Shown in pieces: positions 5,508 to 25,226 of a stretch of DNA of 50,083 bases; position 1 is the first letter of the stretch, and each line of letters opens with the position of its first letter. The DNA comes from a virus. The stretch covers positions 1 to 50,083 of the IMG/VR virus record IMGVR_UViG_3300043438_002632; one strand, written 5' to 3'. A program made the translations under genes and the position numbers. Below the pieces are notes generated by a model that was given only the letters and a program-made list of their open reading frames with translations, made no database searches and was not told the origin of the DNA.

Positions 5508-5535
5508 ATTAGACCATGAATCGAGAGGATGTCAA
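5508..5535 (-). promoter_or_regulatory. Early-type promoter for DNA polymerase
   Basis: Minus strand: TTGACA (5535-5530), 16 bases, TCTAAT (5513-5508), 6 bases, ATG at 5501. The TGA stop of the upstream gene (5534-5532) is the TGA inside TTGACA. Confidence 0.75.
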
Positions 5536-6728
5536 TTCCATCTTGGCAGCAATTTTCTAGCGGGATCGCCGTAATCTGTGTTCAAGGCTTCCATGAATGC
5601 GCCAATATTGTCATCCAATTCCAAGAATCGTTGAGATCCAATATTTCTCAATTCAGGAACCAGTGAATAATACTTAGATCTATTTTTCCAGTTTAGCAGC
5701 TTTTCAACTTTATATGCTAGATCATCACTGTTGGTGAATTTTAAATCAGACAACGCATTACCATAAGTTACCATATCTTGACACAAGCAAGGAATACCCA
5801 AACAAGCAGCTTCGATGTATTTGATGTCTGATTTGCTTCTATTGAAATTATTATCCTGCAATGGAGCGATGAATAATTGCGCCTTGAGACTTCTTAAGAA
5901 GTTTGGATACTGCATTAAGTTTTTCCAAGGGTGGAATTCGATTTTTTTACTGAATACCAAACTCTGCAACGGTGGGGGAACTGCTCCAATGAATACGAAC
6001 TGATACTTATCGACATTTTCAGTGATAAATTTAAGAACATGTGTGAAATCATCCTCTTGATTGGTTTTATTACCAACATCAAAGTGTGCTCCAGATCCAG
6101 CATATACAATTCGTGGCTTTTTCTTATTTTTATCGAAATTATCGATAATTTCTTTGTAATTATAATGATGACCTATCCACCAATATGGCGGGAAATTAGG
6201 AACTGTTGTGATTTCTTTCTTCCCAGTTCTTAACTTGTAGAGATCTCTCATGTAATTACAGGTCACAGTGACCTCATCACACATGTTTATTATATCGATG
6301 CAGTTCTGTCGGATGGTATCATTATCAAATGACTCTTTGTAGATGTTGTAGTCTGGAATATCTTCCCTAAACACAACATCATCGACTTCATACATCAATT
6401 TAAATCCACATTCTGGTTGAATGCTTTTTAAAAATTTGACAAACTCTTTCTGTTCTGACGAAGCCTGTCTTTGCAGCTTGACTGTTCTTACATTTCTGTA
6501 CCAATCTTTGTTCAGCACCATGCTAGTCAGAGAAGTACTGTCGCCCATATTGCACATATTCATGTGCATTTCAGCCCATCCGATTCTCCACATCCCACAT
6601 CCCTGTCTATCAGCCATGTAATTAACATATCTAGTTGATTTAGACTGAGATCTAGCAACATTCGCAGTTGTTTGCTTAGAACTAGACGGAGATTTTGGAA
6701 ATGGAGAAGCGAATGGTTTTACAAACAT
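5532..6728 (-). CDS. GT-B fold glycosyltransferase (GT4-like)
   Basis: 398 residues. The C-terminal half shows the nucleotide-sugar-binding Rossmann pattern of group-1 glycosyltransferases: KPRIVYAGSGAHF, then QFVFIGAVPPPL, a L-x-APLQ-x-NNFNRSKSD segment, and the E-x7-E-like region KYIEAACLGIPCL. The N-terminal 30 residues are Ser/Thr/Lys-rich and look disordered. It sits between gp46 and DNA polymerase in an early block with its own early-type promoter, unlike the sugar cassette at 18.7-24.9 kb. Early placement next to the polymerase would suit a DNA-glucosylating enzyme, as in T4. It could equally modify a protein or surface glycan, since I see no hydroxymethylating enzyme in this window. 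Acceptor unknown. Confidence 0.75.
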   Translation of the reverse strand: MFVKPFASPFPKSPSSSKQTTANVARSQSKSTRYVNYMADRQGCGMWRIGWAEMHMNMCNMGDSTSLTSMVLNKDWYRNVRTVKLQRQASSEQKEFVKFLKSIQPECGFKLMYEVDDVVFREDIPDYNIYKESFDNDTIRQNCIDIINMCDEVTVTCNYMRDLYKLRTGKKEITTVPNFPPYWWIGHHYNYKEIIDNFDKNKKKPRIVYAGSGAHFDVGNKTNQEDDFTHVLKFITENVDKYQFVFIGAVPPPLQSLVFSKKIEFHPWKNLMQYPNFLRSLKAQLFIAPLQDNNFNRSKSDIKYIEAACLGIPCLCQDMVTYGNALSDLKFTNSDDLAYKVEKLLNWKNRSKYYSLVPELRNIGSQRFLELDDNIGAFMEALNTDYGDPARKLLPRWN

Positions 6729-17290: not shown

Positions 17291-17318
17291 TTGACAAGAA
17301 TTTTATTTCATGTAAAAT
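17291..17318 (+). promoter_or_regulatory. Early-type promoter for HNH gene
   Basis: TTGACA (17291-17296), 16 bases, TAAAAT (17313-17318), 6 bases, ATG 17325. Best sigma70-like match in the window. Confidence 0.8.
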
Positions 17319-17324
17319 CGACAC

Positions 17325-17990
17325 ATGAATGATAAAATTTTGGTTCTAAACAGGTTCTATTTCCCTGTTGGAACTTGTGATGTGAAGAAAACCTTTGGAA
17401 ACATATTTTCCGAAGTTGTGCATCCTTTGGACATCGTTTATGACCAAGATACCGATGGCAACAAACTTGAAACCATTTCATATTTCAATGTCATAAAAAC
17501 CGCAAAAGATTGGATGGGTCTTCCAATTCGAGACTACGACAATCGAATAAAAACAACACGAGGAGATGTAAGAATTCCATCTGTGGTGGTGTGTGCTACA
17601 TACGAAGGGATACCCCATAAAAAGGTGCTTTTTCCAACCAAACACAACATTTTCAAGAGAGATAAAAACATCTGCGGATACACTGGATTGAAGTTAGAAA
17701 AAGAAACTTTAACATTGGATCACATCTATCCGAGGTCTAGATATAAATCAAACCCAAACACTTGGGAAAACCAAGTAGCCTGCCACAGAGAGCTGAATAT
17801 GTGGAAAGGTGATAAATTACTAGAAGAGTGCGATTTAAAAACATTCAACCCAAGAGATCCCGATTTAAAAAATTGGCTGAGCACGCAAGGTCGTCGATTG
17901 AAATTGATGAAACCTGTCCAAAAACCAAAAAATGGATATGTTTTTGTTGATTTTCTAGAAGATTGGGAAATGTTCTTGAAATCTGAATAA
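17325..17990 (+). CDS. HNH endonuclease
   Basis: 221 residues. The nuclease core lies at residues 112-165: RDKNICGYTG, then LTLDHIYPRS (D132-H133), W-E-N149-Q and ACHRELNMWKGDKL. The order of Asp-His, Asn and His/Asn residues matches the beta-beta-alpha metal fold, though only part of the usual zinc-binding cysteines is present. The N-terminal 100 residues match the type of domain found in bacterial HNH proteins that begin with an intein-like or restriction-associated beta region. It has its own early promoter. Possible roles are homing, host DNA cleavage or packaging-associated nicking; the sequence does not decide. Confidence 0.82.
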   Translation: MNDKILVLNRFYFPVGTCDVKKTFGNIFSEVVHPLDIVYDQDTDGNKLETISYFNVIKTAKDWMGLPIRDYDNRIKTTRGDVRIPSVVVCATYEGIPHKKVLFPTKHNIFKRDKNICGYTGLKLEKETLTLDHIYPRSRYKSNPNTWENQVACHRELNMWKGDKLLEECDLKTFNPRDPDLKNWLSTQGRRLKLMKPVQKPKNGYVFVDFLEDWEMFLKSE

Positions 17991-18009: not shown

Positions 18010-18744
18010 ATGAGAATTGCTATCAGCGGTACCCAAAATTCGGGAAAGTCAACATTGGTCAATGCATTTTTACAAAAATGGCCTATGTATGGCACTCCTG
18101 TTAAAACATACAGAGACATCATCAAGGAAGCTAATCTAGAGCATTCCTCACAAACCAACGAGGAAACACAGCTGCTTATCTTGGACTGGATGATGAAGAC
18201 TCAGGAGAAGATGACAAAGGAAACCAACATGATCTATGATCGATGCACTTGGGATAATTTGGCATACACACTGGTTGCAAATTCTTATGATCAAATTTCC
18301 GATGAAGTCACTGCCGCTACCATTTCACTGGTTAGGGAAAGCATGAAGCATCTCGATATTATCTTTTGGATTCCTTTCGATGAAGATATTAAAGTCGTGG
18401 ATGATGGTGTTAGAGATACAAAAATCGAACATCTAAAAGAAGTTGATCAAGTATTCTCACAGCTCTATGATCATTATTCTGATGACCTAGAAACTGATAT
18501 ATTCTACCCAAAGGAAGATTGCCCAGCAATTATTCCAGTGGAAGGTAAGACTATTGATGATAGGTTGTTTTATATCTCTCAATTCATCGATGATGCTGGC
18601 GCATTGATAGAACCAGATCCAAATTTCTTCAGCGAAGAAAATCTTCAGCTATTGGAAACCATGCTGAAAGATCAAGAAGACGCAGGTAAAGCGGATGCAG
18701 CAATTGAAAAATTAATGAAAGAAATTAAGAAAAATGGAAAGTAA
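18010..18744 (+). CDS. P-loop NTPase/kinase (AAA_28/NadR-like)
   Basis: 244 residues. Walker A GTQNSGKST at 7-15, right at the N-terminus as in nucleotide and nicotinamide-riboside kinases. A later IYDRCTWDNLAY is the D-R motif typical of NadR/AAA_28 proteins. IIFWIPFDEDI then gives the strand and acidic segment before the lid. The C-terminal 50 residues are helical and charged. The substrate cannot be read from sequence; nucleoside or NMN-type phosphorylation is family-based inference. First gene of a tight co-directional run continuing into the glycan cassette, overlapping the next gene by 11 bases. Confidence 0.75.
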   Translation: MRIAISGTQNSGKSTLVNAFLQKWPMYGTPVKTYRDIIKEANLEHSSQTNEETQLLILDWMMKTQEKMTKETNMIYDRCTWDNLAYTLVANSYDQISDEVTAATISLVRESMKHLDIIFWIPFDEDIKVVDDGVRDTKIEHLKEVDQVFSQLYDHYSDDLETDIFYPKEDCPAIIPVEGKTIDDRLFYISQFIDDAGALIEPDPNFFSEENLQLLETMLKDQEDAGKADAAIEKLMKEIKKNGK

Positions 18745-19537
18745 TGAAAAAATAGGAGTGGGCATTGTTACATACAATCGCCCTCATTTACTGGAAAAAT
18801 TATTAAACAGCATATCGAGCTGTACTTTCATTGATCTCATCATTGTGAATGATGGTGAGCGCATTGATAACTTAAAAGGGTGGAATTATTTTCTTGTAAA
18901 TAATGAGACCAATTTAGGTGTTGGTAAATCAAAAAATGTCGCTATACAACATTTGTTAGATAAAGGATGTGATCACATCTTTTTGATTGAAGATGATATC
19001 TTTATTAAAGATGTGACAGTGTTTCACAAATATATAGAAGCATCCAAAATATCGGGAATCCAGCATTTCAATTTTTCTCAACATGGGGTTATGAATAAAT
19101 CATTTGACTCCAATCGTGATCCAAATCCCAGAGTGATTATAAATTATGGGTCAATTAAAATTCCGCTGTACCCTCATTGCGTTGGTGCTTTTTCTTATTA
19201 TTCTAAAAAATGCTTAGAAAATGTCGGTCTTATTGATTATAGATATTATAATGCATGTGAACATGTCGATCATACATATGAGATCATAAAATTCGGGATG
19301 CACCCACCTTTTTGGTATTTTGCAGACATTGAAAATTCTTGGGAATTTATTGGTGATGAAGAATGGTCCCCTCAAACATCATCTATACTTTCAAATCCAA
19401 AGGCTCATATGTTTGTAACTGATGCGGATAAAATTTTTATAGAAAAGCATGGGCATTTGCCGCAGCAAACTCCATTAGTGAATGAACAAGAACTTAAAAA
19501 TATATTAAAAAAAATAAAAAATGAGCATACTGCATAA
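18734..19537 (+). CDS. GT-A glycosyltransferase (GT2-like)
   Basis: 267 residues. It opens with VGIVTYNRPHLLEKLL, the classic GT2 N-terminus. FIDLIIVNDGE is the nucleotide-binding strand, and LGVGKSKNVAIQ is the following helix. HIFLIEDDIF supplies the metal-binding acidic motif (EDD, 86-88). The second half has aromatic, acceptor-site-like segments (GMHPPFWYFADIENSWEF). No membrane segment, so it should act in the cytoplasm on a soluble or lipid-linked acceptor. It overlaps both neighbours, indicating coupled expression. Confidence 0.85.
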   Translation: MESNEKIGVGIVTYNRPHLLEKLLNSISSCTFIDLIIVNDGERIDNLKGWNYFLVNNETNLGVGKSKNVAIQHLLDKGCDHIFLIEDDIFIKDVTVFHKYIEASKISGIQHFNFSQHGVMNKSFDSNRDPNPRVIINYGSIKIPLYPHCVGAFSYYSKKCLENVGLIDYRYYNACEHVDHTYEIIKFGMHPPFWYFADIENSWEFIGDEEWSPQTSSILSNPKAHMFVTDADKIFIEKHGHLPQQTPLVNEQELKNILKKIKNEHTA

Positions 19538-20099
19538 TACATTAACACGAATACCGCCAGAGCATAAGATAAATATGTCCTACCTAGAACTAGGATATGA
19601 AAATTTAGAAAATGTTGGGAATAATTTTAAACAAGTGGACGGATTTAAAAGTCAAATATCAGTAGATATGAACAATCATAATGCTACATATACTATGACT
19701 ACTGATGAATTTTTTAAAATAAATAAACATAAATTCGATATTATCTATATTGATGCCGGTCATACTTATGAACAAGTATTATTAGATTACAACAATAGTG
19801 TTAAAGCATTAAACGAAGGAGGAGTAATATTTATACATGATCTATTTCCACCTAATATCGAATTCACCATTCCCGGTTATTGCGGAGATGGTTTTAGACT
19901 TTTATCAGACCTCATCATATTAGAACGGGATTTTTTAACATATATTCCAGACATGGGTCTTACCCAAATATTCAACAATAAAGAAATTAATTCGTATAGT
20001 AATATATCATATGGCGATTTTGTAAATTTGATAGCAAATAATAAGAAAACAACTGCGGATTTAGAAGAATGGGTTGTTAATTTTTTAAAGAATATATAA
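19521..20099 (+). CDS. Class I SAM-dependent methyltransferase (Methyltransf_24-like)
   Basis: 192 residues. The SAM-binding motif I is degenerate (YLELGYENLENVG), followed by ISVDMN (acidic ribose-binding residue) and the strong family signature KFDIIYIDAGHTYEQVLLDYN, then LNEGGVIFIHDLFPP. This Asp-Ala-Gly-His pattern is typical of Methyltransf_24 enzymes found in sugar-tailoring clusters. Overlaps the preceding glycosyltransferase by 17 bases and ends one base before the next. It likely methylates a sugar or a sugar-attached group. Confidence 0.78.
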   Translation: MSILHNTLTRIPPEHKINMSYLELGYENLENVGNNFKQVDGFKSQISVDMNNHNATYTMTTDEFFKINKHKFDIIYIDAGHTYEQVLLDYNNSVKALNEGGVIFIHDLFPPNIEFTIPGYCGDGFRLLSDLIILERDFLTYIPDMGLTQIFNNKEINSYSNISYGDFVNLIANNKKTTADLEEWVVNFLKNI

Positions 20100-20100
20100 T

Positions 20101-20826
20101 ATGGATTTAACAATTCTAACTTGTAATTACAACACACCCACGCTTGTCATAAATTTGATTAAAAGTCTTAAATTAGTGTGTGCCGAACTTCCAGATATAT
20201 TAGTAGTAAATACTTCAACTGAAGAAGAATCGAATAATATTTTAGAAAAAAATAATATCAGACATTTAAATCTTCCAAGTGGAACGCATGGGAATGGGGT
20301 GAATTTAGGACTATCTAATATTACAACTCGTAATGTGTTATTAGTGGATACTGACATATTATTTTTACAAGATTTTAGAAAGCCTTTTGAAAAATTTAAA
20401 GAAAGAGGTTTGACTCTTATGGGTAAAGTTGTTGGAGATTGCGGTAATAAAAAATTATACCCAAGAATAGAACCATGGTATTGTTTCATGGACCTGCACT
20501 CTCTGAAAAAATACAACATTCAATTTTTTGATCCGATCAGAAGTAAAAAAATAAATCCGAGTGAAAGAGTTTATGATATTGGTTCAACTATGTTTGAAGA
20601 TGTAATAAAATCTGAATTATCGATTGGAGATGTCGATCTAGAAAATAAATATTTCAAACATTATGGTGGAATGTCTTGGAGGGAACAGAAGTATAATCCA
20701 AATGATATAGATACAGATATAGATTTTGGTGGAACTCACCCACATAAGGGAATTTATGATCTGGCATTGAGAGTTAAAAATCAATATTTAAAAGATGTCG
20801 AATATCTAAAAAATGTAATAATATGA
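20101..20826 (+). CDS. GT-A glycosyltransferase (GT2-like)
   Basis: 241 residues. LTILTCNYNTPTLVINLI opening, then PDILVVNTST, and LLVDTDILFLQ with a DTD metal motif (83-85). The His/Gly segment THGNGVNLGL matches the donor-binding region of GT2. The C-terminal half contains EPWYCFMDLHSL and FKHYGGMSWREQ, which look like acceptor-site elements. Overlaps the next gene by 4 bases (ATGA). Confidence 0.8.
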   Translation: MDLTILTCNYNTPTLVINLIKSLKLVCAELPDILVVNTSTEEESNNILEKNNIRHLNLPSGTHGNGVNLGLSNITTRNVLLVDTDILFLQDFRKPFEKFKERGLTLMGKVVGDCGNKKLYPRIEPWYCFMDLHSLKKYNIQFFDPIRSKKINPSERVYDIGSTMFEDVIKSELSIGDVDLENKYFKHYGGMSWREQKYNPNDIDTDIDFGGTHPHKGIYDLALRVKNQYLKDVEYLKNVII

Positions 20827-21560
20827 AATATAACTTAACAGACACATCTATAATAATTCATTTTCGAAGAGATTTTATAGATAGACTTAATAATTTAGAA
20901 ACTATCGTAAGATTCTTAAATAAAAATTTTAACTATAAAGAAATAATAATAATTAATGATGATTCGGTATTGGATGAAGGAATGTTACAGTTTAAAAATT
21001 CCAAGGATAATATAATTGGGTTATTTTATAAAAATAGTGGAGCTTTTAGAAAAGCGGATGCTTTTAATATAGCGGCTAAAATAGCGACTGGACGAATTTT
21101 ATGTTTTTACGATGTAGATATTTTGATAGAGCCTATCTTCTTAGAAGAAGCACAAACCCTTATATTAAATGGACATTATGATCATATATACCCGCATAAT
21201 GGCGAGTTTATAACTGTAAAAAAGGAAGTATTTAATAAAATCCTTCCAACATATGATTTTAATTATATGATTAACAATCAAAAAACGGAGAATTTTGAAT
21301 GGGCCGCTGGAAATTCTCCGGGAGGGTGTAATATGATTTCAATAGAAGCATTCAATAAAATATCTGGATATGATTCTAGATTTCTTGGATGGGGGTTCGA
21401 GGACTCTGATTATAAAAATAGATCTATGAGAAAAAACAGAGTTAAACACATAGAGTCTGATAGAGCTGTCTGTTGGCATTTACAACACGATAACTCTATT
21501 AAAGCTGAAAACCCATATTATAACCATAATTATCAAATATACATAGAAAATAACAGATGA
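20823..21560 (+). CDS. Glycosyltransferase with GT7-like galactosyltransferase C-domain
   Basis: 245 residues. GT-A N-terminal half with EIIIINDDS and CFYDVDILI (DVD, 97-99). The C-terminal half carries GGCNMISIEAFNKISGYD followed by FLGWGFEDSDYKNR, which matches the beta-1,4-galactosyltransferase C-domain (Glyco_transf_7C) pattern of GG-x-x-x-x-x-x-x-F, NG-F and WGWGxEDxD. VCWHLQHDN follows, a conserved His region. It may transfer galactose or N-acetylgalactosamine, which would make the acceptor for the fucosyltransferase three genes downstream. Start overlaps the previous stop, and its stop overlaps the next start. Confidence 0.78.
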   Translation: MKYNLTDTSIIIHFRRDFIDRLNNLETIVRFLNKNFNYKEIIIINDDSVLDEGMLQFKNSKDNIIGLFYKNSGAFRKADAFNIAAKIATGRILCFYDVDILIEPIFLEEAQTLILNGHYDHIYPHNGEFITVKKEVFNKILPTYDFNYMINNQKTENFEWAAGNSPGGCNMISIEAFNKISGYDSRFLGWGFEDSDYKNRSMRKNRVKHIESDRAVCWHLQHDNSIKAENPYYNHNYQIYIENNR

Positions 21561-22069
21561 GAAACGCATTATTTAAAAGAAAAACCGATTATTTCATAGA
21601 GACTGGTTCATATATTGGAATAGGCATTGATATCGCAATTCAATCTGGATTTTCTAAGATATTTTCAATTGAAATTCATCCAGATTTTTATAATCAATGT
21701 AAATTAAAATTTAGTGATAAAAATCATGTATCTTTAATATTAGGAGATTCATTTTTTGAATTAGAAAAACTTTTAAATCAATATCCAAATACACCGTTTA
21801 CCTATTGGTTAGATGGGCATTATAGCGGCGAGGGAACGGGGTATGGATTTAAAGAATCGCCATTAATAAAAGAATTAGAAGTCATTATGAGCAGAGGAGT
21901 GGATGGAGAATTGATATATGTGGATGATATGAGAATATATAGAACATTTGATGATGAGCTAAATTCTAATTCTATAAAAGAAACTATAAAAAAATATAAA
22001 CCTAACGCCACCCTTTGGTACGAGCCGAGTCAGTATGATCCACAAGATATTTTATGTATAGAGTATTAA
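21557..22069 (+). CDS. Class I methyltransferase-like protein
   Basis: 170 residues. FIETGSYIGIGIDIAIQSG is a motif-I-like loop, SIEIHP the acidic strand, and VSLILGDSFFELEKLL the motif II/III region. FTYWLDGHYSGEGTGYG then ELIYVDDMRIY follow. The WLDGHYSG pattern is shared with a group of small cassette-borne methyltransferase-fold proteins. Catalytic activity is not certain because motif I has an unusual Ser-Tyr-Ile. ATGA overlap with the preceding gene. Confidence 0.65.
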   Translation: MRNALFKRKTDYFIETGSYIGIGIDIAIQSGFSKIFSIEIHPDFYNQCKLKFSDKNHVSLILGDSFFELEKLLNQYPNTPFTYWLDGHYSGEGTGYGFKESPLIKELEVIMSRGVDGELIYVDDMRIYRTFDDELNSNSIKETIKKYKPNATLWYEPSQYDPQDILCIEY

Positions 22070-22072
22070 ATT

Positions 22073-22690
22073 ATGTTAATTGAATTTAAAATATTAAAAG
22101 ATAAATATAATATCATTCCTATTGGAGTTTTTCATGTGGGAATGCATAAGGGCGAGGAATATCCAATTTATAAACAAAATGGAGTCGAATCTATAATTTT
22201 TGTAGAGGCGAATAGAGATTTAGCACACTCTTGGTCATCTAATAATGATGATGAATTCTGCTATGTTGTGCATGCTGCTGTTTCTGATAAAGTGGAAGAA
22301 GTTGAATTTCATATAACCAACAATGGAGAAAGCTCTTCTATTCTCGAATTAGGAGACCATGCTGCGATTTATCCCCATATTGTAAATGTCAAAAGTGTTA
22401 AAATGAAAACTACAACAATCGACTCAATCAACCGTAAAATTGGATTGAATGAAGCTTCTTGGAATGTTTTAAATCTAGATATACAGGGAGCTGAATTAAA
22501 AGCATTGAAAGGTATTGGAGACTGGCGATTCATCGAAGCTATTTTTACAGAAATTAATTATAGAGAAATGTATAAAGGATGCGCGTTGGAATCTGAAATT
22601 ACTGAATTTTTATCTTCTAAGGGATTTACAAAAGTTGAAGAAGTTGACACAGGAAGCGGTTGGGGTGACGCATTATATATAAAAAGATGA
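22073..22690 (+). CDS. FkbM-family methyltransferase
   Basis: 205 residues. GVFHVGMHKGEEYPIYKQNG corresponds to the FkbM SAM-binding motif (usually DVGANxG, here HVGMHKG). IIFVEAN carries the acidic ribose-binding residue. TTTIDSIN and LNLDIQGAELKALKGIG are the hallmark FkbM signatures (Asp-x-Gln-Gly-Ala-Glu). The last part (IFTEINYREMYKGC) matches the family's closing strand. Such enzymes O-methylate sugars in many exopolysaccharide clusters. Overlaps the fucosyltransferase start by 4 bases. Confidence 0.88.
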   Translation: MLIEFKILKDKYNIIPIGVFHVGMHKGEEYPIYKQNGVESIIFVEANRDLAHSWSSNNDDEFCYVVHAAVSDKVEEVEFHITNNGESSSILELGDHAAIYPHIVNVKSVKMKTTTIDSINRKIGLNEASWNVLNLDIQGAELKALKGIGDWRFIEAIFTEINYREMYKGCALESEITEFLSSKGFTKVEEVDTGSGWGDALYIKR

Positions 22691-23457
22691 ATAATTGTTT
22701 CGTTAAAGTCTCTGGGGGGATTGGAAATCAGCTTTTTCAATTAGCTGCCGGGTATACATATTCCAAACAATACAATAAAGAATTATATATAGATGATTTA
22801 CACTGGAATGCGAGTCAAGGAACATCGCCCAGAGCATATCAATCCAGTATATTTCAGAATTTTGCATATTGGAAAGGTTCAGCAGATCATGTTTTTAATA
22901 TATCTGAAAAAAGATTTAATTACGATCCGTTACCATATACACAAGGCTCCGTCGCACTACATGGATACTTCCAATCCTTAAAATATTTCGAAGATTATAA
23001 GGATGAATTCGTATCGAAATTAGCATTGCCTGATATTGAATATTCTATTGATGTTGATAATGCAATAGCCTTTCATATAAGACGCGGTGATTATTTGAAA
23101 TATCCAGATATACACCACGTTTGCACGACTGAGTATTTCAAGGCTTTATTTGATAAATTCAAAGATAGATATAGAATACATGTATTCACTGACTCTCCAG
23201 AATATATATCAGAAGAATTCAAAGGATACGAATTTGATATACAGAAAACTGAATCGGATTTACATGATTTGAGCTTGATGTCCAAATATACGAAAATAGT
23301 TTGTAGTAATTCATCATTCTCGTGGTGGGCTAGTTTTCTAGGAGATCCGAGCAAATACATAATTGTTCCAGAGAGATGGTTCGGATTAAATTTTGAAAAT
23401 CATGATGATATATATAGATCTGATTTTATAAGAGTTCGATGTTTAAATAACAATTAA
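22687..23457 (+). CDS. GT11 alpha-1,2-fucosyltransferase
   Basis: 256 residues. N-terminal GGIGNQLFQLAAG (10-22) and the family motif I HIRRGDY (130-136) for GDP-fucose binding. FTDSPEYISEEF and SNSSFSWWASFLG (207-219) are the remaining GT11 signatures. Bacterial homologues add L-fucose in alpha-1,2 linkage to galactose, the H-antigen step. No signal or membrane segment. GDP-fucose would have to come from the host, as no GMD/fucose synthase is present here. It lies directly upstream of the GT6-containing gene. Confidence 0.92.
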   Translation: MNNCFVKVSGGIGNQLFQLAAGYTYSKQYNKELYIDDLHWNASQGTSPRAYQSSIFQNFAYWKGSADHVFNISEKRFNYDPLPYTQGSVALHGYFQSLKYFEDYKDEFVSKLALPDIEYSIDVDNAIAFHIRRGDYLKYPDIHHVCTTEYFKALFDKFKDRYRIHVFTDSPEYISEEFKGYEFDIQKTESDLHDLSLMSKYTKIVCSNSSFSWWASFLGDPSKYIIVPERWFGLNFENHDDIYRSDFIRVRCLNNN

Positions 23458-23467
23458 TATCCAATAT

Positions 23468-24877
23468 ATGAAAAAGTTAGGAATATATATAATTGGAACA
23501 AATGCGTATTTTGCATTAGCTATACGATTTATAAAAAAGTTTCAATACTTCTACAAAGGATCACACGATTTAGAATTTATTTTATTCTCGGATACAGATC
23601 CGAGAATGTATTTACCAGATTATATAAATTGTAAATTTTTTGAAACGCATCACACTTCTTGGGTTGATGGTACTAATTCAAAATTTAAAAATATATTAGA
23701 TAATAGGGAAGATATAAAAGTCGATTATTTATATTATTTTGATGCTGATACTGATATAACTCAAGATTTTGACGATTGGTTTATTGGAGATATAGTAGCT
23801 GGTGAACATTATGGAAATTCATCATACATGAAATTTGATCCAACTGATGATCGAAATATAAATAAAAAACCATTCGATAGAAATATTAAGTCGTGTTGTT
23901 TTTTAGATAAAAGTGATGATGAATTGATCTATTGTTATGGTGCTTTTTTTGGAGGATTATACTCAAATGTCTTGGAGATGTTGTCATCATTGAATGGTAT
24001 GATGGATATTAATAAAACCCAGAATTATGAGCCTCCTTGGAATGATGAAAGCTATTTAAACTATTATTTCAACACAAATCCAGTTAAAATAATACCATCA
24101 TGCGATTTTAAATTTTTAGTAAGTTGCAAGGGTGGGATATCAGATACCAGAAATTGCGATTTAAATATCGAAGATTTAAAATCGCAAATGATCAAATTCA
24201 AAAATTATGTTTTTGCATTTGATAATGGTGTGAAAATTGAACCGTTACATATGCTGGAAAATAGCATTAAAATAAGTATAGATTATTGTTATTATATAAA
24301 TCCAAATCATTATAGTTCCAGAACACCTAGTATAGAAAATGTAGTAGAACAATTAAACTGTAAAGAATCTCGAAGAATTGCTACAGATCCAGATGATCAA
24401 TCAAAAATAAATAGATGTACAATTTCACACATCCACGCATTGAACCAAGCGATAATAAATGATCATTTTCCGCTTTTGATTTTAGAAGATGATTCGGAGT
24501 ATTTACAATACAATTTTAAACTTGAAAATTGCAAATCATATGATGATATAGATGCTATATATCTAGGGGGGAGCCTATACCCAGCTGGAGGAGGTGTATA
24601 TTTAGAAAAATATGACGATAATTACTATAGGGTGTATAATATGCTTTCAGCTCATGCTATTTTATTTTTGAATAAAAAATCAGCTAAAACAATATTAGAT
24701 ATATATGTAAAATCGTTGTCAAATAATAAACATTTAGACTTAGATTTAGCTGAGAGTTCGAAGCGATTGAAATTTTTAACTCCAAAAGATGGACCTTACT
24801 TTTATCAAAACGATGGCTTGACAAGAGATGTAACTACGTTTAAATGGAATTCACATTTACATTTACTGAAAGACTAA
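23468..24877 (+). CDS. Two-domain glycosyltransferase: GT6 (ABO family) fused to a GT25-like domain
   Basis: 469 residues. Residues 1-225 follow GT6, the family of ABO A/B transferases. LGIYIIGTNAYF opens the domain, LEFILFSDTDP follows, YYFDADTDIT holds a DXD motif (92-94), IYCYGAFFGG corresponds to the human FYYLGGFFGG, and PWNDESYLNYYF (190-201) to WHDESHLNKYL. Residues 265-469 resemble a GT25 LPS-type transferase: IDYCYYINPNH, LLILEDDSEY (EDD, 340-342), DAIYLGGSL and SAHAILFLNKKSAK. A linker around 225-265 joins them. From memory, bacterial GT6 enzymes usually replace DXD by NXN while vertebrate and one cyanophage member keep it; this protein keeps it. Family GT6 enzymes act on Fuc-alpha-1,2-Gal, the product of the upstream GT11. 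Confidence 0.82.
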   Translation: MKKLGIYIIGTNAYFALAIRFIKKFQYFYKGSHDLEFILFSDTDPRMYLPDYINCKFFETHHTSWVDGTNSKFKNILDNREDIKVDYLYYFDADTDITQDFDDWFIGDIVAGEHYGNSSYMKFDPTDDRNINKKPFDRNIKSCCFLDKSDDELIYCYGAFFGGLYSNVLEMLSSLNGMMDINKTQNYEPPWNDESYLNYYFNTNPVKIIPSCDFKFLVSCKGGISDTRNCDLNIEDLKSQMIKFKNYVFAFDNGVKIEPLHMLENSIKISIDYCYYINPNHYSSRTPSIENVVEQLNCKESRRIATDPDDQSKINRCTISHIHALNQAIINDHFPLLILEDDSEYLQYNFKLENCKSYDDIDAIYLGGSLYPAGGGVYLEKYDDNYYRVYNMLSAHAILFLNKKSAKTILDIYVKSLSNNKHLDLDLAESSKRLKFLTPKDGPYFYQNDGLTRDVTTFKWNSHLHLLKD

Positions 24878-24878
24878 C

Positions 24879-25226
24879 ATGTTCAACGCAATTAACCACA
24901 TACTGTTCGAAAAACCGAACCCCCAAATCGATGCAGGCGCACTTGACGAATTCTCCCCTTATATGGTGAATCGGTATTTTTCATTTTATGGAAATTGCGA
25001 TTATGTTGATTACATCAACGAAACTACAAATACATACCATTCAATCTTTAAAACCCCGGAAGAGCAGTATAAGTTTTTCGAACATGTGATTCCTAAAGTT
25101 AAAAGAAAGAAAATAAATTATATTAAGCGTCCTAAGAAAACGCAAAATAAAGACGAAGTGCAAAAACAAATACCTGATTTTTATTCTATAAAGGAATGGG
25201 AATCATTGACAAATGCGAATGTATAA
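24879..25226 (+). CDS. 62: gp62-like clamp-loader small subunit
   Basis: 115 residues. The core SPYMVNRYFSFYGNCDYVDYI, broken as SPYMVNRYFSF and DYVDYINETT, plus KFFEHVIPKVKRKKINYIKRP, has the same layout as the short gp62 of marine T4-like phages (S-P-[FY]-M-[VI]-NR-x-[LF]-S, then F-L-x-x-V-x-KKKR). The clamp loader ATPase (gp44) and clamp (gp45) are not in this window, so the assignment rests on this pattern. It is one base downstream of the glycan cassette, so its transcription may depend on that run. Confidence 0.6.
   Translation: MFNAINHILFEKPNPQIDAGALDEFSPYMVNRYFSFYGNCDYVDYINETTNTYHSIFKTPEEQYKFFEHVIPKVKRKKINYIKRPKKTQNKDEVQKQIPDFYSIKEWESLTNANV

Follow-up and report, generated by a model that had tools for sequence, protein, structure and literature searches.

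The window analysed here is a viral record of 50,083 bases (IMG/VR record IMGVR_UViG_3300043438_002632, taken at its full length) from a divergent T4-like myovirus. Between 18734 and 24877 it carries a cassette of glycosyltransferase (GT) and methyltransferase genes whose distal end is exchanged between otherwise near-identical phages. The last gene of the cassette encodes a GT6 domain fused to a GT25-like domain, and this GT6 domain belongs to a deep branch of a family best known for the ABO blood groups, a branch found, among the sequences compared, only in virus records or virus-like contigs. Clusters of glycan genes in phages are already well known; what is new is the virus-only GT6 clade, the GT25-like domain fused to it or paired with it, and the clean exchange at the end of the cassette. 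A fucosylated glycan with variable ends is a plausible product of the cassette, and the GT6 enzyme probably builds a sugar chain related, but not identical, to that of the ABO type, which a preliminary description had proposed.

Exchange of the terminal genes between relatives

Many close relatives of the window phage are present in IMG/VR. The core genes of one of these, L018/L009, share 98-99% identity with the window, and in this phage the six genes at the front of the cassette are 99.4-100% identical in nucleotide sequence to their counterparts in the window. The GT11 gene that follows is a divergent allele, with 83.5% nucleotide identity and a synonymous divergence (dS) of 0.72, as against 0.03-0.08 in the flanking genes; its ratio of nonsynonymous to synonymous divergence (dN/dS) is ~0.11, and GT11 is thus still constrained. 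The final, capping gene is different altogether, a GT2 gene of 254 residues replacing the GT6-GT25 gene of the window. At base 24879, where the clamp-loader gene begins, identity returns to 98-99%, and L019, L020 and L099 break at this same base.

The type of cap is uncoupled from the core phylogeny, since L005, whose core is only 77% identical, has the GT6-GT25 fusion (preceded there by an aminotransferase and an epimerase), whereas the closer L018-L020 carry the GT2 type. In the wider set of relatives, the gene bordering the clamp-loader gene at the right edge of the slot comes from any of at least seven families. That the GT11 allele and the cap change in parallel would fit a GT11 that makes the acceptor for the cap. 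The cassettes of other relatives hold GT10, GT17, aminotransferase, C-methyltransferase and epimerase genes, and one relative encodes a dTDP-glucose 4,6-dehydratase, so that this phage group is likely to make unusual deoxysugars. Near-identical phages that differ in their last glycosyltransferase provide a natural experiment on what terminal sugars do for a phage.

A GT6-GT25-like fusion enzyme

The gene at 23468 had been described as a GT6 domain. GT6 is indeed present, at residues 1-231, but the gene is not GT6 alone, since a second, GT25-like glycosyltransferase domain (residues ~263-469) had been overlooked. The AlphaFold2 model of the GT6 domain has a predicted local distance difference test score (pLDDT) of 91, and all 50 structures listed in the fold comparison are GT6 enzymes. 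The best of these is BoGT6a of Bacteroides ovatus (Z 22.9, root-mean-square deviation 2.4 over 221 residues), with human ABO transferase at Z 21.8, each at ~20% identity over residues 1-231. The PF03414 match spans profile positions 79-280 of 313. The domain keeps the DXD motif (D92-A-D94), the W191-N-D-E194-S segment including the catalytic Glu, E194, and the G162-G163 region, and its K221 and R228 are invariant across 29 aligned GT6 rows. Judged by these residues, the GT6 domain appears catalytically intact. Loss of catalytic residues from GT6 or GT11, which the preliminary description had thought would speak against its reading, is not seen in GT6, and GT11 keeps its HIRRGDY motif.

The donor triad of the domain is Y157-G-A159 (Tyr-Gly-Ala). 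At the corresponding positions the human A enzyme has Leu266 and Gly268 (Leu-Gly-Gly), and the B enzyme Met266 and Ala268 (Met-Gly-Ala) (PMC4202792). The bulky residue at the first position of the triad therefore points, weakly, to UDP-galactose (UDP-Gal) as donor. The DXD motif predicts metal dependence, unlike the bacterial NXN enzymes of the family, which are metal-independent (PMC3961637).

The GT25-like domain, modelled alone, has a pLDDT of 90.6 and an invariant EDD motif. Its best fold matches are GT25 enzymes: human COLGALT1 (Z 15.7, root-mean-square deviation 2.8, 176 residues), bacterial beta-1,4-galactosyltransferases (13.4) and mimivirus R655 (12.9). The Pfam GT25 profile (PF01755) scores 13.7 bits, under the cut-off of 24, and the domain is for this reason labelled only GT25-like. 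A profile match to COLGALT1 in the PDB was discarded, since it depended on the GT25 row of the Prochlorococcus phage P-SSM2 and without that row only a weak match to mimivirus R655 was left; the assignment thus rests on fold. The two domains are separate adjacent genes in P-SSM2 and many other phages; aligning the fused and the separate genes together placed the GT25 rows wrongly, and that alignment was set aside. Searched against solved structures, GT11 gave no match as a single sequence and, as a profile, only weak matches to GT-B fucosyltransferases.

A virus-only branch of GT6

The GT6 tree was built from 135 dereplicated sequences drawn from virus records, phage records, bacterial genomes and two solved structures, and its bootstrap had not fully settled. 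The window enzyme falls in a clade of 32 rows with support of 100/100, joined by a very long branch to the remaining GT6 sequences; the ABO enzyme, BoGT6a, P-SSM2 and nearly all bacterial GT6 genes fall opposite. The only row in the clade labelled bacterial, L177, comes from a contig of a Burkholderiales metagenome-assembled genome, and was rejected as evidence of a host gene because the contig carries phage genes and is probably a phage contig. The canonical C-terminal loop of GT6 (~12-16 residues between the F/Y-x-F motif and the conserved Lys) is missing in all clade members compared.

The genes around GT6 also set the clade apart. A GT11 gene lies within 8 kb of GT6 in 1 of the 31 other clade members. 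The corresponding figures are 16 of 17 for the P-SSM2-like cyanophage clade and 35 of 57 for other bacterial loci (Fisher p 1e-10 and 2e-8, respectively; the flanks average 12-13 kb in total and the loci are not fully independent). The sole case among the 31 is L099, a close relative of the window phage. Coupling of GT11 and GT6 is therefore real family-wide but is no habit of this clade.

Several further GT6 genes were encountered. At least 469 candidate virus loci in the viral_contigs collection encode GT6 relatives, compared with the two cyanophages reported in 2014 (PMC3961637). A frequent partner of the clade genes is a phrog_4417 protein (~315 residues, with a DCD motif and a GT-A-like look), which lies directly upstream of GT6 in L006, L007, L109, L112, L114, L118, L119, L126, L127, L134 and L138; matches of one member to TALE proteins were dismissed as an artefact of repeat summing. 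A DXD-type GT6 clade occurs in Dependentiae and Chlamydiae, mostly without a nearby GT11 (L178, L180, L183, L184, L191, L193, L196, L197, L214, L223, L229, L246 and L250). A 663-residue open reading frame at L160:5725-7713 matches both the methyltransferase of the type encoded at 21557 and GT6.

Gene content and transcription

The window phage carries genes for a DNA polymerase, RecA-like protein, UvsW-like helicase, PhoH, portal, head protease and major head protein, and its portal protein shares only 26-29% identity with the portals of isolated phages. Every cassette gene named in the preliminary description is an open frame at its coordinates (Table 1), neighbours overlapping or lying 1-10 nt apart, and E-values of ~1e-9 to 1e-19 rule out chance for the key domain matches. 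Its assignments of GT11, GT6 and two GT2 enzymes agree with the family profiles, although marginally for the GT2 at 18734, and its three methyltransferases likewise hold, that at 21557 as a probable one, with no Pfam match but a pattern resembling S-adenosylmethionine (SAM) methyltransferases. The supposed GT7-like galactosyltransferase at 20823 does have the GT7-type motif; Glyco_transf_7C matches only a 39-residue C-terminal region, however, the remainder being GT2. Similarity to beta4GalT1 structures is weak, and galactose is at most a candidate donor. The HIRRGDY motif of GT11 (HxRRxDY type) is conserved among relatives. No transmembrane stretches were seen in the cassette proteins, all of which look soluble and cytosolic. 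The GC content of the cassette is 29.9%, against 35.5% for the whole window, and that at third codon positions 20-26%, against 35-41% in nearby core genes, so that the cassette looks acquired. Elsewhere in the window, a gene on the minus strand between the DNA polymerase and SbcC-like genes (5532-6728) has a weak GT-B match (Glyco_trans_1_4, 19.8 bits, below cut-off).

Table 1. Features of the glycosyltransferase cassette and its borders
Feature	Position	Strand	Evidence
Best sigma70-like promoter candidate, upstream of the HNH gene preceding the kinase-cassette run	17291..17318	+	TTGACA-16-TAAAAT, 11/12
P-loop kinase-like protein (AAA_28 / PHROG thymidylate kinase), left edge of variable slot in relatives	18010..18744	+	Pfam, PHROGs; synteny in L011, L012, L014, L099
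GT2-type glycosyltransferase (GTa), kept in relatives	18734..19537	+	PHROG glycosyltransferase E 1e-24; Pfam GT2 23.0 bits, just below cut-off 23.3; synteny
Methyltransferase (Methyltransf_24)	19521..20099	+	Pfam 42.6 bits
GT2-type glycosyltransferase (GTb), kept in relatives	20101..20826	+	Pfam GT2 28 bits
GT2 glycosyltransferase with GT7-type C-terminal motif GWGFEDSDY	20823..21560	+	Pfam GT2 43 bits; Glyco_transf_7C 35 bits, cut-off 23
Probable SAM methyltransferase	21557..22069	+	SAM-methyltransferase-like sequence pattern; relatives in cyanophage glycan clusters, 29-30% identity
FkbM-type methyltransferase	22073..22690	+	Pfam Methyltransf_21, 57 bits
GT11 fucosyltransferase-family protein, HIRRGDY motif	22687..23457	+	PF01531 68.3 bits, cut-off 23.9; PHROG 1e-39
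GT6 domain of fusion (residues 1-262)	23468..24253	+	PF03414 40.6 bits, cut-off 25; alignments; AlphaFold2 model
GT25-like domain of fusion (residues ~263-469), EDD motif at 341-342	24254..24877	+	AlphaFold2 model, fold comparison; neighbour context
Clamp-loader-subunit-like gene, start codon the sharp right edge of variable slot	24879..25226	+	PHROG 225; from exactly 24879 the sequence again matches five relatives

In this phage group the late promoter is an N(C/T)TAAATA-like motif, which in the window lies mostly 13-18 nt (in many cases 13-14) before the start codons of structural genes and is conserved in relatives. It occurs upstream of 12489, 13471, 14231, 28054, 29170, 31333, 32966, 38756, 39433, 42411, 42806 and 43545. 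In relatives, TAAATA was found within 30 nt upstream of 73/73 portal, 71/71 ad2, 45/45 protease and 67/71 tail-sheath-stabiliser genes, but of 0/65 open reading frames in the cassette slot and 2/51 cassette homologues. The cassette is therefore not driven by late promoters of its own. Early-type transcription from 17976 had been suggested previously; non-late transcription is borne out by the lack of the motif, but the promoter at 17976 does not rise over the background, a scan for sigma70-like sites returning 69 against 72.3 expected and so standing, by itself, at chance level. The likeliest guess is that transcription begins early, from 17291.

Possible roles of the cassette

For the order of action, sugars, target and purpose we infer the following. 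With about an even chance of being right, the cassette provides early-made, swappable glycan-capping enzymes that remodel a host-envelope glycan during infection. It would form a modular set of soluble cytosolic enzymes, transcribed early or in the middle period, that assemble and methylate a short oligosaccharide. The fairly constant front (GT2, GT2, GT7-type GT2 and methyltransferases) would build the base, GT11 would add a deoxyhexose, most likely fucose, and the GT6-GT25 fusion would then add two further sugars, the first most likely an alpha-linked galactose (Gal) or N-acetylgalactosamine (GalNAc); the chain end would be the part exchanged between near-identical phages. The likeliest target would be a host-envelope glycan made on the cytosolic side, such as the lipopolysaccharide outer core or a lipid-linked intermediate, so that host receptors may be changed during infection to differ from those of competing phages. 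Modification of the host surface has likewise been proposed for the glycosyltransferases of pelagimyophages (PMC7029224) and cyanophages (PMC9602691). Against such remodelling, no initiating sugar-phosphate transferase (PF02397) or Wzx-type flippase (PF01943) was found in nine related records (51-207 kb, possibly incomplete), so that the acceptor must come from the host or else be a protein, and early expression would suit enzymes modifying virion proteins equally well. More tentatively, the virus-only GT6 clade may form a distinct subfamily that acts on an acceptor of its own, frequently has an adjacent or fused GT25-like partner and is swapped at single-gene resolution to alter the outer sugars of a glycan. 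It would then be a viral analogue of ABO-like polymorphism, in which a constant precursor meets alternative terminal enzymes at one locus.

True ABO-type synthesis, in which the GT7-type enzyme adds beta-Gal, GT11 an alpha-1,2-fucose and GT6 an alpha-1,3-Gal or GalNAc to give an A- or B-like epitope, is improbable. The gene order suits it, GT11 standing directly before the GT6 gene, as do the retained DXD, catalytic Glu and W191, and a triad whose bulky residue 157 and Ala159 come nearer to the Met-Gly-Ala of the B enzyme than to the Leu-Gly-Gly of the A enzyme (PMC4202792). GT11 is also common beside other GT6 genes, and the joint switch of GT11 allele and cap would fit GT11 acting just before the cap. 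However, the preliminary description was wrong in its premise that Fuc-alpha-1,2-Gal is the acceptor of established GT6 enzymes: those of vertebrates also include alpha3GT, iGb3 synthase and Forssman synthase, and beta-Gal or GalNAc residues are the acceptors described for the family (PMC3961637). The enzyme alpha3GT produces the linear B structure without fucose, and GT11 also includes an alpha-1,3-fucosyltransferase (PMC4202792). ABO specificity is left unsupported by the position of the window GT6 outside the ABO/bacterial/P-SSM2 group, by its missing C-terminal loop and by the rarity of an adjoining GT11 in its clade, where the single case is so close a relative. The fused GT25-like domain suggests, moreover, that the GT6 sugar need not be the chain end, and genes for GDP-fucose were not found, a PF16363 match tested in a relative proving to be the dTDP-glucose 4,6-dehydratase. 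Acceptor specificity should thus not be read off a family label.

Decoration of the virion ranks next after host-envelope remodelling, although it is rather unlikely. The enzymes would in this case work in the cytosol to glycosylate capsid or tail-fibre proteins, the variable end of the glycan altering how hosts, predators and other binders see the particle. The soluble, cytosolic look of all the enzymes, the failure to find lipid-carrier start or export genes in relatives and the position of the slot beside head and tail genes are in keeping with this, as is the GT25-like fold, which resembles viral protein glycosylation enzymes (the PBCV-1 capsid GT at Z ~12, and mimivirus R655) in a family that contains the protein-acting COLGALT1. 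Fold likeness does not reveal the acceptor, however, GT25 is also a lipopolysaccharide family, and the cassette genes are without the late motif that the structural genes carry. Glycosylation of hydroxymethylated bases in the manner of T4 is very improbable. A T4-like phage, early-type expression, the adjoining kinase and a weak TAGT match for the first GT (E 0.022) could all accompany it, but the thymidylate-synthase/dCMP-hydroxymethylase family (PF00303) was not found in the same nine records, and the many different GTs, together with FkbM and the nucleotide-sugar genes of relatives, are typical of glycan synthesis. A Tet/JBP search gave no match, but its control gave none either and it was uninformative.

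Relation to known systems

The closest parallel to the cassette is the PSSM2_257-271 glycan cluster of P-SSM2, also a T4-like phage, in which GT11, FkbM-like, GT6 and GT25-like genes likewise occur together and GT6 has a DXD motif. The two GT6 enzymes are 28-31% identical, but that of P-SSM2 falls on the ABO and bacterial side of the tree, retains the C-terminal loop, carries an AGG donor triad and is encoded separately from its GT25-like partner, and its cluster also encodes a GDP-mannose dehydratase and epimerases, unlike the window cassette. With BoGT6a and the human ABO transferases the window GT6 shares its fold, the catalytic Glu and the conserved Lys and Arg; it differs from them in its separate virus-only clade, lack of the loop and fused GT25-like domain, and from the NXN, metal-independent BoGT6a in its DXD motif. 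Variable glycosyltransferase genes in T4-like genomes are a feature that the window has in common with the clusters of pelagimyophages and cyanophages (PMC7029224, PMC9602691). In contrast to those clusters, the slot in the window phage lies between a kinase and a clamp-loader gene, and its end is swapped one gene at a time between near-identical genomes.

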